DNA of 34,722 nt from an uncultured Bacteroidota bacterium. Lineage in GTDB: Bacteria > Bacteroidota > Bacteroidia > Bacteroidales > Bacteroidaceae. The position numbers and the translations under genes are program-made. Where the stretch lies: the NCBI GenBank assembly GCA_947168315.1, contig CAMVLL010000015.1, positions 1 to 34,722 of the forward strand, read 5' to 3'. Shown piece after piece: positions 18,233 to 25,001 of the stretch; the stretch's first letter is position 1, and each line of letters starts with the position of its first letter. A model generated the notes under the pieces. That model did not search any database. It saw only the letters and a program-made list of their open reading frames with translations, and was not told the DNA's origin.

Positions 18233-20161
18233 ATGAAATACGGTTTCGTAAAGGTAGCCGCTGCCGTCCCCATGGTAAAAGTGGCAGATTGTGAGTTCAA
18301 TGTCCAGCAGATTCTGAATCTGATATCCCTTGCTGAGGAGAAAGGGGTGGAAATCATCGCCTTTCCAGAACTAAGCCTCACAGGATACTCTTGTGGGGAT
18401 TTGTTCCAACAGACCCTTCTCTTAGAAGAAGCAGAGATTGCCTTGATGAAGATTGTTAATATGACACGTCAGATGAGCGTCATCTCGATTGTCGGTATGC
18501 CCATCGTTCATAAAGGTGCCTTGATGAACGCCGCCGTTGTTCTACAAAAGGGGAAGGTATTGGGTGCTGTTCCCAAAACACACATACCAAACTACAAGGA
18601 GTTCTATGAGAAACGCTGGTTTGCCTCTGCCAAGGATGTTCCCGAAGGTGAGATCCGTCTGTGCGGACAGCTGGTACCAGTCAGCGCCAACCATATTTTT
18701 GACACACAAGAGACTAGCTTCGCCATTGAAATCTGCGAGGACGTGTGGGCTCCCGTACCGCCAAGTTCTGCTCTCTCACTCAAGGGCGCGGAGATTATCT
18801 TCAACCTATCGGCCGATAATGAATGTATCGGCAAGCACGAGTACCTGCTCTCTTTGCTGAGCCAACAATCAGCTCGCTGTCTGAGTGGCTATGTATATAG
18901 CTCGTGTGGATATGGTGAGTCGACTACCGACGTGGTCTATGCCGGCAACGGACTGATTTACGAATGTGGCAAGTTATTGAGTCGATCGAAACGGTTCCAA
19001 TATAAGGAGCAACTCATCATCAGCGAGATTGATGTAGAACGCATCCGCAATGAGCGGAAGATGAACACTACCTTTACTTCCAGCATTGAAGAAGTATCGT
19101 CCATCTCCGACAAGCATATCGGCACGGAGTTTATCAATCGTCCAAACCTGATCTTGACTCGTACTTATCCGCAACATCCGTTTGTTCCTGAAAACGAAGC
19201 GCTACTGAATGAGCGCTGCGAGGAAATCTTCGCCATTCAAGTGGCCGGACTCATCAAACGAATGGATCATTCACGTAGCGAGAAGGTCGTACTTGGCATC
19301 TCCGGTGGTTTGGACTCTACCCTCGCCCTCTTAGTCTGTGTGCGCGCATTCAATCAGTTGAAGATGGGATACGAAGGTATCATCGCCGTGACCATGCCAG
19401 GCTTTGGCACCACCGACCGCACGTATCAAAACGCATTGAACTTAATGGCTTCCTTAGGTGTAACCATCCGTGAAATCAGCATAAAAGATGCGTGCATCCA
19501 ACATTTCATGGATATTGATCACGACATCAATAACCACGATGTCACTTATGAGAACAGTCAGGCACGCGAACGTACTCAGATTTTGATGGATATCGCCAAC
19601 CAAGTGGGCGGCCTCGTCGTAGGAACAGGCGACTTGTCTGAGCTGGCCTTAGGATGGGCAACTTATAACGGCGACCATATGTCGATGTATGGCGTTAATG
19701 CCAGCATCCCAAAGACTTTGGTTCGCTATCTGGTGAGATGGGTTGCGCTGAATGGAGTGGATGAAGAGTCAAAGAAAACTCTATTGGATATTGTCGACAC
19801 CCCGATCAGTCCAGAACTGATTCCGGCCGACGAACAAGGAAATATCCAACAGAAGACGGAAGACCTGGTCGGACCGTATGAACTACACGACTTCTTCCTC
19901 TATTATTTCTTGCGTTTTGGCTATCGTCCGAATAAAATCTATCTGTTGGCTACCCATACTTTCAAGGGTATCTACGATGAAGAGACCATCAAGAAATGGC
20001 TTTACACCTTCTTCCGCCGTTTCTTCCAACAGCAGTTCAAGCGTTCTTGTCTGCCTGATGGGCCAAAAGTAGGAAGTGTATCGCTGAGCCCGCGTGGAGA
20101 TTGGCGGATGCCGAGCGATGCAAGCGCCAACCTCTGGTTGAAAGAATGTAAGGAACTATAA
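18233..20161 (+). CDS. nadE: glutamine-dependent NAD+ synthetase
   Basis: This 642-residue two-domain enzyme catalyses the last step of NAD synthesis: deamido-NAD plus ATP plus glutamine to NAD. The N-terminal nitrilase-type glutaminase (about 1-280) shows the catalytic triad Glu46 ([11 protein letters not shown]), Lys115 (VPKTHIPNY) and Cys168 (EICEDVW). The C-terminal NAD synthetase (about 320-640) has the ATP pyrophosphatase loop SGGLDS (357-362) and [23 protein letters not shown]. All key residues are present and the length fits the glutamine-dependent class. Its stop overlaps the stop region of hisB on the other strand by six bases, so no separate terminator fits between them. Confidence 0.95.
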
Positions 20162-21301
20162 GACTCCTTTGCTCGAAGGTACTTCGAAATGATAAATATC
20201 CCTTTGCACAGCCATCTTCAACGACCGTGCAAAGGCTTTAAATATACCTTCTATCTTGTGATGCTCGTTCTCACCTTCTGCCTTGATATTTAGGTTCATA
20301 CGAGCCGAATCACTCAATGATTTGAAAAAATGCAGGAACATCTCCGTCGGCATGTCACCGATTTTCTCACGTTGGAATGTCGCATCCCAAACCAACCATG
20401 GACGACCACCAAAATCCAACGCCACCTGACACAAACAATCATCCATAGGCAGGCAAAAACCATAGCGTTCAATCCCTCGCTTGTTGCCTAATGCCTCGTA
20501 CAGACACTCACCTAAAGCCAATCCAGTATCCTCAATGGTATGATGTTCATCCACCTCCAAGTCGCCCTTCACCTTTACGGTCAAATCCATGTTCCCGTGT
20601 TTCGCTATCTGTTCCAACATGTGGTTGAAGAAGCCTAAACCAGTGTCAATATCACTCTTACCCGTTCCGTCCAGATTCAGCTGGATCAAGATATCTGTTT
20701 CCTTCGTCGTCCGTCGTACTTCTGCCCTCCGTTCACCTGCAAACAGGAACTCAGCCACCTTATCCCAGTCGGATGTAACCAGTACACACGACTCCAACAA
20801 GTCAGGACGATCTTCCAAACAGACGGTATCAGGTTGCAAAAGAATCGCCTTGCAACCTAAGTTCTTCGCAAGCTCTACATCCGAAGAACGGTCACCGATG
20901 ACAAAGCTATTGGCTAAGTCGTACTCACCATCTAAATACTTTGTCAGCATACCCAAACGAGGCTTGCGTGTAGGAGCATTATCCTCAGGGAAACTACGGT
21001 CAATGAGTACATCCTGAAATGTGATCCCTTCTCCTTCAAGTGTACGCATCACCAAGCGATGAATAGGCCAAAAGTCATCTTCTGGGAATGACGATGTACC
21101 CAAACCATCTTGGTTTGTCACCATCACCCGCTCGAAATCTAGTTTCTCGCAGATAAAACTCAGGTTTCGTATCATCTTTGGGTAAAACTCCAGCTTTTCA
21201 AACGAATCGACTTGATAATCGATGGGGGGCTCAATGATGAGCGTCCCATCACGGTCGATGAACAATACTTTTTTCTTCATATCATCTGGTTTCATGTTCA
21301 T
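20156..21301 (-). CDS. hisB: HisB, bifunctional histidinol-phosphatase / imidazoleglycerol-phosphate dehydratase
   Basis: This 381-residue fusion catalyses two steps of histidine synthesis. The N-terminal HAD phosphatase (about 1-170) has the nucleophile motif FIDRDGTL (Asp16/Asp18), VTNQDG and [10 protein letters not shown]. The C-terminal dehydratase (about 195-381) shows [21 protein letters not shown] and NEHHKIEG, the His-rich metal sites. The start at 21301 overlaps the hisC stop as ATGA, supporting coupled translation; in-frame ATGs at 21295 and 21280 are alternatives. It is the last gene of hisGDCB and runs tail-to-tail into nadE with a six-base overlap. Confidence 0.95.
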
Positions 21302-22335
21302 TCATAATTTCGCAAGGCTACCAACAATTCATCATCTTCTTCCTTTGTACCAATGGTAATCCGCAGACAATCCTTACATAACGACACCTTATGACGATTT
21401 CGGACGATAATACCTTGGTCAACAAGATAGGCATAGATAGACGGAGCATCGGTTACACGTGCCAGGAAGAAGTTGGCATCTGTAGGAAAGACACGTTTGC
21501 AACAAGGTAATTGTCTAAACGCCTCGAAAAGTCGTGTACGCTCCTCAAGCAATACATCTACCCACGCAGAGACTTGATCCTGCTGTTGTAGGATGGACAA
21601 TGCCTCACGTTGTGTCAGCAAGTTGACATTATACGGATACTTCACCTTATTAAATAGGTTGATGATCTCCTTATCTGCAAAAGCCATGCCCAAGCGAATG
21701 GCAGCACATCCCCATGCCTTACTGAACGTGTTCAGGACAATCAGTTTCGGATACTTGTCCAAGTCAAACCGGAACGACCGTTGTTCGGAAAAATCCCCAT
21801 AGGCCTCATCGATGACGACAATGCCATCGAATTTTTCAAGGATCTGAATAATCTCATTCCGATCCATATTGTTTCCTGTCGGATTATTAGGGCTACAGAT
21901 CCAGATCACCTTGGTCTGAGCATCGGTAGCAGCCAACAAGCGGTTGGCCGACAGTTGGAAATTCGCATCCAAGAGCACCGGTCTATACTCCACATCATTG
22001 ATATCCGCACAAACCTGATACATTCCGTAAGTCGGTTCGATAGCCACCACATTATCTTCTCCCGGATTGGTGAAGCAACGGTAGACCAAGTCAATGGCCT
22101 CGTCACTACCGTTACCGAGAAAAATCTGTTCCTCTGCAACCTGCTTCATAACAGCTATCTTTCCTTTCAGTTCTGTTTGCAACGGATCCGGATATCGATT
22201 CAGCGGAGCATGGTAAGGATTCTCGTTCGCATCCAGAAAAACCCGAGCGACATGTCCACTATATTCGTTTCTCGCCGATGAATAAGGTTTCAAATTCCAG
22301 ATATTCGGTCGTGTCAATGCTTGTAAATCCCTCAT
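21298..22335 (-). CDS. hisC: HisC, histidinol-phosphate aminotransferase
   Basis: This 345-residue PLP enzyme (class I/II aminotransferase) transfers an amino group to imidazole acetol phosphate. The PLP Lys206 is in [18 protein letters not shown]. Other fold markers are [12 protein letters not shown] (phosphate loop), [19 protein letters not shown] and the C-terminal LRITIGT. It starts four bases after the hisD stop and overlaps hisB, so it is part of the hisGDCB operon. Confidence 0.95.
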
Positions 22336-22339
22336 ATCA

Positions 22340-23617
22340 TTATTTCTTTAGTCGGACAGTCACAGCATTTCGGTGGGCATCCAGTCCCTCGTGTGTCGCC
22401 ATTGTCTCGATGGCCGGTCCGATTGTTTGTAATCCTTCTTTTGTAATCTCTTGAAAGGTGATTTTTCGAATGAAAGCATCTAGATTCACCCCGCTATATG
22501 CCTTGGCATAGCCTTTCGTAGGCAAGGTATGGTTCGTACCTGAGGCATAATCTCCCGCACTTTCCGGTGAGAAAGAGCCGAGGAAGACAGAGCCTGCATT
22601 TCGCACTTGTTCCGCTAACGTCGCATAGTCCTTTGTTTCGATAATCAAATGCTCGGGTGCATATTCGTTGGTCAGTTCCATCGCTTCCTCCATGGAATGA
22701 ACCAATACGAACCGACTGTTCTCCAAGGCTTTTGCTGCAATCTCTTTTCGTGGAAGCTCGTTCAACTGACGTTCAACTTCTTTCTCTACTTTCTGCAGCA
22801 ATTCATCCGATGTAGATACCAGCAGCACTTGGCTGTCGATGCCATGTTCCGCTTGCGACAACAAATCAGCTGCGACAAAGGCGGCATTGGAAGTCTCATC
22901 TGCCAACACTTCTACTTCAGAAGGACCGGCAGGCATATCAATCGCCACGTCGTACAACGATACTTGTTGCTTGGCAGCCTGTACATACTGGTTGCCCGGA
23001 CCAAAAATCTTATACACCTTCGGCACACTCTCCGTACCATACGCCATGGCACCGATAGCTTGCACACCTCCAGCTTTGAAGATACGGTTCACTCCAGCCA
23101 TCTTTGCGGCATATAGGATCACAGGATTGATTTTCCCTTGTCGATCGGGCGGTGTACAAAGCACGATTTCCCGACAACCGGCTATCTGAGCTGGGATAGC
23201 CAACATCAGCACCGTAGAAAACAGCGGTGCTGTACCACCAGGGATATACAATCCTACCTTCTCGATGGGGACAGCTTTCTGCCAACAGGTGACGCCCGAC
23301 TTTGTCTCAACTTTCGTTGACACGAATCGTTCTGATTCATGGAATGTACGAATATTCTCGGCAGCCAACGAGATGGCTTTTTTCAGTTCTTCGGGAACCA
23401 TACTCTCTGCTTCGGCTACCTCTTCTGCCGAAACAGTCAGCCCAGAAAGACGAACATGATCAAAGCGTTCCTCATAGTCCAAGACGGCCTCATTGCCTCG
23501 CGACTTAATATCGTTCAACACTCGGTTTACCGTTTCTCGCAAATCCTGTACATCCAGCTCCGGACGGCGAAGCAATTCACTCCAGGTCGCTCTCTTCGGA
23601 TATTTTACGATTTTCAT
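22340..23617 (-). CDS. hisD: HisD, histidinol dehydrogenase
   Basis: This 425-residue enzyme makes the last two NAD-dependent oxidations of histidine synthesis. The zinc ligands Gln255 and His258 (SQAEHG), Asp356 (AGDYASG) and His415 (GLDAHRNAV), and the catalytic pair Glu322-His323 (YAPEHL), are all offset by exactly four from the E. coli numbering, so the alignment is secure. [17 protein letters not shown] and [11 protein letters not shown] are further signatures. It starts 10 bases after the hisG stop. Confidence 0.96.
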
Positions 23618-23627
23618 CTTCGATATT

Positions 23628-24479
23628 TTAGATAATCATTTTCTCAATAGGCAGAACCAAGATGCCTTCGGCTCCCATCGATTTCAACTTCCCGATAATC
23701 TCCCAAAATGAATGTTCGCTTAGCACAGTATGTACCGAGCTCCATCCTTCTTGAGCCAACGGCATGACCGTCGGACTTCTCATGCCTGGCAAGACTTTCA
23801 CAATCTCTTCCAATCGGTCATTTGGAGCATTCATCAACACATATTTCTTGTCCTCTGCCGCCTGTACGGCTGCAATACGGAAGAGCAGTTCGTCAAGTAT
23901 CGCTTTTTTGTCCTCGTCCAAGCCTTGGTTAGCGATGAGCAAAGCCTCGCTCTGCATCACGATTTCCACCTCTTTCAGACTATTGCTCACCAATGTTGAG
24001 CCAGAACTGACAATGTCGAAGATAGCATCTGCGAGATGAATTCCCGGTGCAATCTCTACGGAGCCTGTGATAACATGAATCTCGGCCTGAATCTTATGTT
24101 CTTCCAGGTAATTCTTCAAGATCACTGGATAAGATGTCGCAATCTTCCTGCCTTCAAACCATTCCAGCCCCGGATAATCCTCCGATTTCGGAATGGCAAG
24201 CGACAAACGACACTTGCTGAAGCCCAACCGTTTCACAATGGAAGCATTCTCCTGACGCTCTACAAACTCATTTTCACCCACAATACCCAAATCGGCTACA
24301 CCACTGGCTACCGACTGAGGTATATCATCATCCCTGAGAAACAGAATCTCGATGGGGAAGTTCGGACTTTGCATGAGAAGTGTCCGTTTAAAGGAAGGAA
24401 TCTTGATATCCGCTTCCTGAAGCAACGACATCGTATCGTCATACAAACGTCCTTTTGATTGCACTGCTATACGTAACAT
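23628..24479 (-). CDS. hisG: HisG, ATP phosphoribosyltransferase (long form)
   Basis: This protein of about 283 residues is the committed first enzyme of histidine synthesis and is feedback-inhibited by histidine. The start at 24479 gives the canonical MLRIAVQSKGRLYDDTMSLL; a longer frame would run into the attenuator terminator. SGVADLGIVGENE and DIVSSGSTLVSNSLKEVE are PRPP/substrate-binding motifs. The C-terminal part after about residue 210 (KKYVLMNAPNDRLEEIVKVLPGMRSPTVMPL) is the ACT-like regulatory domain of the long form, so no HisZ is needed. Transcription is controlled by the leader at 24504-24662. Confidence 0.95.
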   Translation of the reverse strand: MLRIAVQSKGRLYDDTMSLLQEADIKIPSFKRTLLMQSPNFPIEILFLRDDDIPQSVASGVADLGIVGENEFVERQENASIVKRLGFSKCRLSLAIPKSEDYPGLEWFEGRKIATSYPVILKNYLEEHKIQAEIHVITGSVEIAPGIHLADAIFDIVSSGSTLVSNSLKEVEIVMQSEALLIANQGLDEDKKAILDELLFRIAAVQAAEDKKYVLMNAPNDRLEEIVKVLPGMRSPTVMPLAQEGWSSVHTVLSEHSFWEIIGKLKSMGAEGILVLPIEKMII

Positions 24480-24503
24480 AATCCAAAATTTGATTTCTAT
24501 CAC

Positions 24504-24530
24504 AAAAAAAGGCTTACCAACCGGCAAGCC
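24504..24530 (-). terminator. attenuator terminator of the his operon
   Basis: On the minus strand GGCTTGCC-GGTT-GGTAAGCC (eight pairs, one G-U) is followed by seven T residues, and the hisG ATG follows 24 bases later. CGGTGGGC, just upstream at about 24557-24564, can pair with the left arm and loop (GCTTGCCG, several G-U) as an antiterminator. GTCACAT inside the leader peptide pairs perfectly with ATGTGAC at 24543-24549. Confidence 0.85.
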
Positions 24531-24567
24531 CTATATCTTTAGTCACATACTCCATCGCCCACCGAAT

Positions 24568-24612
24568 TTATTCGTTAGGTAAATGATGATGATGTGACAA
24601 TACTTCTTTCAT
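24568..24612 (-). CDS. hisL: His leader peptide with four consecutive His codons
   Basis: A short frame encodes MKEVLSHHHHLPNE and stop. It begins about 19 bases after the -7 box and ends 38 bases before the terminator stem. Four CAT codons in a row, directly upstream of a terminator in front of hisG, are the hallmark of ribosome-mediated attenuation, as in the E. coli hisL peptide with seven His. When histidyl-tRNA is scarce the ribosome stalls at the CAT run. That should free the downstream segment to block the terminator. When it is plentiful the ribosome reaches the stop and the terminator forms. This is my reading of the sequence; expression was not tested. Confidence 0.88.
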   Translation of the reverse strand: MKEVLSHHHHLPNE

Positions 24613-24630
24613 ATTTCGTATATTATGCGA

Positions 24631-24662
24631 CAAAAATAAAGTAATTTATTTATATCAACAAA
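24631..24662 (-). promoter_or_regulatory. promoter of the his operon
   Basis: On the minus strand TTTG (24662-24659) is followed after 20 bases by TATTTTTG (24638-24631), a perfect TAnnTTTG. The leader peptide starts 18 bases after the -7 box. Confidence 0.75.
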
Positions 24663-24701
24663 CTTTTATCAGAAAATCTTTCTTTTTCCTTTCAATTTGA
24701 A

Positions 24702-25001
24702 TTAAAATTCATAATCCACGCAAGCACGGTCCGCTTTTACGTCTTTCAATATACCAGCCGCCTTGACATGTTCCGGGTGAACTGAATAAGCTTTCACATC
24801 CTCTAGCGTATCAAATTCGCTCTCCAGACAAATATCCCAATTCTCAGAAGCATTGATATTATAGCCTACGAAGACCTTACGGATGAAAGGTATACATGAA
24901 GGAAGTGCTTCGATAGCTGATTTGAAGGCCAAGATGGATGTCATCTTCTCATCTTGAGAGAGGGATTCTTTTAATTTAAATAAAACAATGTGCTTTACCA
25001 T
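24702..25001 (-). CDS. Dabb (stress-responsive alpha/beta-barrel) family protein
   Basis: This 99-residue protein matches the Dabb family: the start MVKHIVLFKLKES, the central GYNINASENWDICLESEFDTLEDVKAYSVHPEHVKA and the closing CVDYEF are characteristic. Members form dimeric ferredoxin-like barrels, and functions range from stress response to cyclases. Nothing here fixes the activity. It lies upstream of the his promoter on the same strand with no obvious terminator, and is divergent from udk. Confidence 0.87.
   Translation of the reverse strand: MVKHIVLFKLKESLSQDEKMTSILAFKSAIEALPSCIPFIRKVFVGYNINASENWDICLESEFDTLEDVKAYSVHPEHVKAAGILKDVKADRACVDYEF

Follow-up and report, generated by a model that had tools for sequence, protein, structure and literature searches.

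The window, a 34,722-nt stretch of DNA from an uncultured Bacteroidota bacterium, carries hisGDCB on its minus strand. The operon's first gene, hisG (ATP phosphoribosyltransferase, long form; 23628..24479), matched both TIGR00070 and TIGR03455 and is followed by hisD (histidinol dehydrogenase; 22340..23617; TIGR00069), hisC (histidinol-phosphate transaminase; 21298..22335; TIGR01141) and hisB (bifunctional histidinol-phosphatase/imidazoleglycerol-phosphate dehydratase; 20156..21301; NF003937). All four matches to these NCBIfam models were above a cut-off, in agreement with the earlier note, which had named the genes downstream of the leader from the DNA letters. The longest ORF for hisG opens at a TTG at 24527, which we rejected as the start in favor of the ATG at 24479. 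On the same strand, an upstream ORF ends at 24702, ~40 nt above the promoter described below. Among 80 loci in named records, the closest HisG is that of MAG RUG12482 (L058), at 90% identity; HisG of Phocaeicola vulgatus ATCC 8482 (L067) is 80% identical to that of the window, and the DNA probably comes from an uncultured organism of the Phocaeicola group.

Upstream of hisG, also on the minus strand, a −33 promoter element TTTG (24659..24662) is separated by a 20-nt spacer from the −7 element TATTTTTG (24631..24638), an instance of TAnnTTTG, the −7 consensus of Bacteroidota. Transcription would start ~7 nt after this box. The leader peptide ORF MKEVLSHHHHLPNE (14 codons; 24568..24612, stop included) contains four consecutive CAT codons (24583..24594), the proposed sensing codons, and the Pro-Asn-Glu codons that follow the His run hold the core of region 1 (CCTAACGA; 24572..24579). 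Region 2 (TCGGTGGGC; 24557..24565) lies 3–11 nt past the leader stop and can pair either with region 1 or with region 3 (GCTTGCCG; 24522..24529), which is common to the antiterminator (2:3) and the terminator (3:4). In the 1:2 core, CCTAACGA at 24579–24572 pairs with TCGGTGGG at 24565–24558; in the antiterminator, CGGTGGGC at 24564–24557 pairs with GCTTGCCG at 24529–24522. The intrinsic terminator (24504..24532; −14.7 kcal/mol) comprises the 3:4 hairpin, whose stem at 24532–24509 has 10 pairs, 5 of them GC, and seven Ts at 24510–24504, with 24 nt between the T-run and the hisG ATG. A blind terminator scan picked this terminator, although its total of 8 sites did not exceed that in shuffles (6.5 ± 2.7). 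On re-reading of the sequence, the order of promoter, His peptide, pairings, terminator and hisG given in the earlier note was exact to the base, and the complementarity that it reported between GTCACAT (24592..24598) and ATGTGAC (24542..24548), here the outer strands of the 1:2 hairpin, was present.

To place the leader peptide in context, we drew hisG upstream regions from the genus, family and phylum and scored an ORF as His-dense if it began with ATG, encoded 7–45 aa and had at least 4 His in 8 residues. Of 193 non-redundant Bacteroidota loci, 139 have such an ORF in front of hisG, compared to 3 of 3,860 shuffled upstream regions; Leu, the next residue by the same criterion, reached 18/193. 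Merging was limited to loci identical over their last 200 nt, so relatives among the 193 are not independent. Within L001–L137, 117 of 137 loci have a His leader, a count in which some genomes appear twice and for which 139/193 is the de-duplicated figure. Relaxing the criterion to at least 3 His in 8 raised the total to 158/193, and 35 loci had no His-dense ATG ORF even then; a few of the loci without one are cut by contig ends, and others are real absences, some within the same family (L019, L085). The six most distant HisG sampled (L201–L206, ~30% identity) had no His-dense ORF upstream. Typical leader peptides are MVRTATHHHHFPNE in P. vulgatus (L067), MKYTATHHHHHFPNE in several Bacteroides and MNITITHRHHHYSIE in B. 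fragilis. Lack of conservation of the His codons in relatives had been proposed as one outcome that would refute the attenuator reading; the leader ORFs are kept well beyond the genus. The peptide tail (PNE, PDE or PGE; 24568–24579 in the window) is often alike in relatives, a constraint explained at the RNA level because CCTRACGA is the partner of region 2.

A covariance model built from the family alignment matched the window element with E = 4e-15 and scored strongly in 23 of the 24 genomes of the same genus that were searched, the window's own included; in the remaining one, G013, hisG is cut by a contig end. For a second copy of the element in the window's own genome, the next best match has E = 0.005 and 28 bits vs 81. 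By eye, several relatives carry only part of the element. Region 2 and the terminator arm are kept in Phocaeicola abscessus (L085/L023), where the L085 leader has one His (MNRILLYHQRPTA), and in L222, whose leader has few His codons; in L019/L076 the terminator arm is present without a leader, with the promoter also kept in L019; and L082, with two His in its leader, shows neither motif in exact form. These are apparently decaying versions of the element.

The promoter is conserved with the leader. Of 93 distinct family leaders, 90 have TAnnTTTG no more than 60 nt from their ATG, 78 of these 90 at 18–26 nt, compared to 7.4% of shuffles (344/4,650). Above the −7 box, 75 of the 90 carry a TTTG, TTGA or TTGT at a distance of 18–22 nt, a count made without a shuffle control. 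Shine-Dalgarno-like 4-mers were found above the leader ATG in 4 of the 93. From the promoter, outer-helix and folding-z tests and part of the 2:3 and spacing tests we omitted L088 and L129, whose "His ORFs" are chance-like.

For the pairings, we selected by eye for diversity 44 of 82 leaders as the family alignment A1. The 82 were kept from L001–L137 after removal by hand of L034, L035, L038, L088, L116 and L129, the remaining removals being due to the terminator threshold. All three pairings (1:2 core, 2:3 and 3:4) are at least 93% intact in A1. The RNAalifold consensus includes the 1:2 core, which has 93.5% of cells paired and both-sided changes at 3 of its 7 pairs, and 98.9% of terminator cells are paired. 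Taken together, the 1:2 core and terminator are 95.5% paired with 7 pairs showing both-sided changes, and on four of five measures they scored above all 500 shuffles, the fifth being equaled by 56. The comparison with relatives that the earlier note had suggested shows conservation of the −7 box, of the terminator and of the antiterminator with which the terminator is mutually exclusive.

Statistical support is weak for the outer part of the 1:2 hairpin, where the His codons lie. The duplex strength of this helix, modestly above shuffles, reached p ≤ 0.05 in 9 of 83 family leaders, and the mean folding z of the leaders was −1.07; in 77 of the 83, the minimum-energy fold pairs at least 40% of the His-codon bases with region 2 or sequence beyond it. 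GTCACAT/ATGTGAC had been put forward as a pairing inside and after the peptide; the best supported pairing around the peptide is CCTAACGA/TCGGTGGG, which had not been listed.

The antiterminator had been called possible. In the 44 sequences of A1, 98.9% of its cells are paired, falling to 24–49% when one strand is slid by 1–3 columns. Its variation within the family is one-sided, and it did not beat a letter shuffle (307/500 as high). Against shuffles of the upstream stretch, a leader's own 2:3 score reached p ≤ 0.05 for 77 of the 86 leaders from L001–L137 and for 13 of the 19 from L138–L166.

A stronger test of the antiterminator than the family alignment is a swap test on distant leaders, in which we took 48 leaders beyond L137 with a His-dense ORF and a terminator and exchanged the pairing partners 500 times. 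The mean 2:3 score was 18.66 for a leader's own partner vs 13.38 for swapped partners (sd 0.40, maximum 14.54), and a score of at least 14 located 8–20 nt past the last His codon was found in 75% of own pairs and 24% of swapped pairs (maximum 40%). The best pairing fell outside these 8–20 nt in 11 of the 48. By hand mapping, 9 of the 48 belong to the window's own family and the rest to nine other families plus the doubtful L152; four of the nine lie outside the window's class, and one is a single leader, L177, whose best pairing is misplaced. The paired segments of distant leaders often differ in sequence, as in CTCAAGCG:CGTTTGAG, GCGCCGG:CCGGCGC and GGGTAAGCT:GGCTTACCC, and yet remain complementary.

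Among 119 distinct leaders, 101 have a hairpin below −9 kcal/mol followed by a T-run; in 6 the terminator is weak and in 12 the finder gave none. By this finder, a strong terminator was absent from 15 of 63 His-dense leaders beyond L137, which may act on translation or may have terminators that the finder missed. The His-dense leaders L139, L140, L143, L182–L185, L190–L192, L195 and L198, for which the finder gave no strong terminator, belong to families f2, f23 and part of f9.

The distance between the His codons and region 2 is nearly fixed. We measured it in 101 leaders whose terminator falls below −9 kcal/mol and whose 2:3 score is 14 or more. The median gap from the last His codon to the start of region 2 is 15 nt (sd 2.4, range 3–19), as the footprint of a stalled ribosome would require. 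Relative to the stop codon, the position of region 2 in the same leaders varies about three times as much (sd 7.5, −28 to +7).

We folded both alternative structures, as the earlier note had advised. When transcription is halted after region 3 and the nucleotides beneath a ribosome on His 7–10 are taken out, the nascent leader RNA folds into 2:3 at −12.2 kcal/mol. The identical fold results with the A-site at Leu 11 or Pro 12, so it is not by itself specific to His. Once the full terminator is present, the minimum-energy fold contains the terminator at 16 of 16 ribosome positions and the antiterminator at none; in isolation, too, the terminator is the more stable (−14.7 vs −12.1 kcal/mol). The outcome must therefore be decided during transcription, as it is in known attenuators. 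In the whole leader without a ribosome, the minimum-energy fold pairs region 1 with region 2.

We propose the following mechanism, which takes the usual footprint size of a ribosome and predicts the start site, a translated leader ORF, ribosome stalling, its kinetics and the histidine response. RNA polymerase would start ~7 nt after TATTTTTG, with a ribosome following on the 14-codon leader ORF. When histidine is sufficient, the ribosome would reach the stop and its footprint would lie over region 2, leaving region 3 free for the 3:4 terminator, and transcription would end after ~120 nt (rather than the roughly 110 bases expected earlier), counting from the start predicted from the −7 box. When charged tRNA-His is short, the ribosome would stall on the His codons, cover region 1 and free region 2, which would then pair with region 3 (CGGTGGGC:GCTTGCCG), block the terminator and allow hisGDCB to be transcribed. 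If no ribosome follows, region 1 would hold region 2 and termination would be the default.

Some of these features could also be expected of a plain terminator, serving the upstream gene or a constitutive short RNA, with the His ORF there by coincidence. Intergenic terminators are common, and the same-strand ORF that ends at 24702 would be a candidate for one. However, the promoter lies between that gene and the leader, with its −7 box conserved there, so that a plain terminator would stop hisG's own transcript, and conservation of the His codons and of 2:3 complementarity is too good for a coincidental ORF. We consider this explanation very unlikely. Somewhat less unlikely, although still improbable, is that the leader acts not on termination but on hisG translation, by sequestering the start, or on RNA stability. 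The 15 of 63 distant His-dense leaders without a strong terminator suggest that another output is possible in some lineages; against it for this leader stands the hairpin below −9 kcal/mol with its T-run, seen here as in most of the 119.

The scarcity of Shine-Dalgarno-like sequences above the leader ATG might instead suggest that the ORF is untranslated and that the RNA is recognized by a trans-acting factor, either as a T-box-like tRNA sensor or by an RNA-binding protein. But translation starts in Bacteroidota generally lack Shine-Dalgarno sequences, and the His frame is kept while the later codons and the stop position vary. Furthermore, an Rfam search of the window at the gathering score returned no match, T-box (RF00230) and His_leader (RF00514) included, and neither of these two matched 24400–24720 when the search was relaxed to E = 10. 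(The two best relaxed matches, MicC and Phe_leader, were far below their cut-offs and were rejected.) We regard a trans-acting element as extremely unlikely. The leader combines an ORF rich in the amino acid that the operon produces, an intrinsic terminator and an antiterminator that excludes it and that a stalled ribosome would leave free. On this comparative evidence, which bears out the interpretation in the earlier note, we are highly confident that a ribosome-mediated transcription attenuator sensing charged tRNA-His lies in front of hisGDCB, and ribosome stalling on the His codons very probably decides hisGDCB transcription. Similar candidate his switches were found in many relatives across Bacteroidota.

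The likeness to the enteric his leader that had been pointed out holds for the logic and fails for the RNA model, as the absence of a His_leader match at E = 10 indicates. Like enteric hisL (RF00514), the window leader has a His-codon peptide, a terminator before hisG and alternative pairings that would be governed by a ribosome. In contrast to the longer A–F series of the E. coli leader, it has three short, mutually exclusive pairings (1:2, 2:3 and 3:4); it has four His codons where the enteric leader has seven; and it has a Bacteroidota promoter and lacks a Shine-Dalgarno-like sequence. The abstract of Vitreschak et al. 2004 (FEMS Microbiol Lett) reportedly lists Bacteroidetes/Chlorobi among the groups with candidate attenuators.

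The closest published element that we found by position and phylum is in Flavobacteriaceae. In its passages on structured leaders, a 2021 transcriptome study of Flavobacterium psychrophilum (PMC9723704) describes an uncharacterized structured 5′ element before hisG, conserved in Flavobacteriaceae and without an Rfam match, and mentions "strong clues" of leader-peptide attenuation before amino-acid operons. For hisG, those passages mention neither His codons nor an antiterminator or a mechanism, details that may be in its supplement. The his attenuators of Firmicutes, as far as their description in PMC9413887 allows the comparison, are likewise made up of His leader peptides, a terminator and an antiterminator before the his operon, in a different phylum from the window; they have three to five His in a row and occur in the B. 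cereus group, Peptostreptococcaceae and Erysipelotrichales. Short leader ORFs have been described in B. thetaiotaomicron 5′ UTRs, with BT_4401 as an example, in an article whose main text does not contain the word histidine (PMC7366714), and the relevant passages of a study of his genes in Bacteroidota mention attenuation for enteric bacteria only (PMC8305728).

In their passages on distribution, comparative studies place amino-acid leader-peptide attenuators in Proteobacteria, Actinobacteria and some Firmicutes (PMC2965389, PMC3766115, PMC9413887, PMC4833913). There, PMC9413887 assigns his attenuators to Proteobacteria and some Firmicutes, PMC4833913 names gamma-proteobacteria and some Firmicutes, and PMC3766115, which covers Rfam motifs only, gives two RNA regulogs for Bacteroidaceae and proposes gamma-proteobacteria as the possible origin of attenuators. 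In the portions of the open-access literature covered by our search, we found no account of his attenuation in Bacteroidaceae. The mechanism itself is known; its occurrence in Bacteroidaceae is probably new, within the reach of this search, and within the phylum it is probably old.

A his attenuator conserved in many Bacteroidota would fill a gap in the known phylum range of attenuators and provide a histidine-starvation sensor for major gut bacteria. It could also serve as a simple reporter for transcription-translation coupling in a phylum whose starts mostly lack Shine-Dalgarno sequences. We see evenly balanced grounds for and against the broader view that his attenuation is old and widespread in Bacteroidota, with its own RNA architecture and leaders that lack Shine-Dalgarno sequences, and that it works alongside similar attenuators of ilvD and perhaps thrA. 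If that is so, old attenuation in Bacteroidota would contradict the published picture of a gamma-proteobacterial origin with few transfers, and the ribosome would have to trail RNA polymerase closely in this phylum.

Other amino acid genes of the lineage were inspected for leaders of a similar kind. No His leader was seen before hisH in three upstream regions (L257, L258 and L261). Since another gene may precede hisH in its operon in L257 and L261, only L258, the hisH of the window's own genome, is a fair test, and it had no His leader within 450 nt upstream. In five of six loci (L263–L267), ilvD is preceded by an Ile/Leu/Val-rich leader; none was seen in the sixth, L268, which is from another family. 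The leader in the window's own genome is MKNIILNNLSVLHLILIVVVILPG (L267; G000:C13, upstream of 25299). After the stop, these leaders have a GAGAAAGG-type segment which, judged by eye, could pair with the 5′ arm of a terminator that follows, and the two searched, L263 and L267, had no Rfam match. The ilvD leader is therefore a candidate branched-chain amino-acid attenuator of like build, and its resemblance to the his leader suggests that attenuation may be a general habit of the lineage.

An aspartate-kinase gene (TIGR00657) of 811–823 codons, which we took as thrA from its length, was examined in L270–L274. Its leaders showed no evident terminator by eye, and no Rfam family matched those of L270, L271 and L273. 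In P. vulgatus and relatives, the leader peptides are Thr-rich, mostly with Met (MTIYYLHTTTTLGMGHMTTTMSTSTTMTPRG in P. vulgatus), and that of the window's own genome (L273) is Met-rich with a single Thr (MTAFYLHQMYISMRMCSWSMDMPFRAE). The thrA leaders are followed by a conserved segment, TTCTACGTGA..CACGCTTACGGA.
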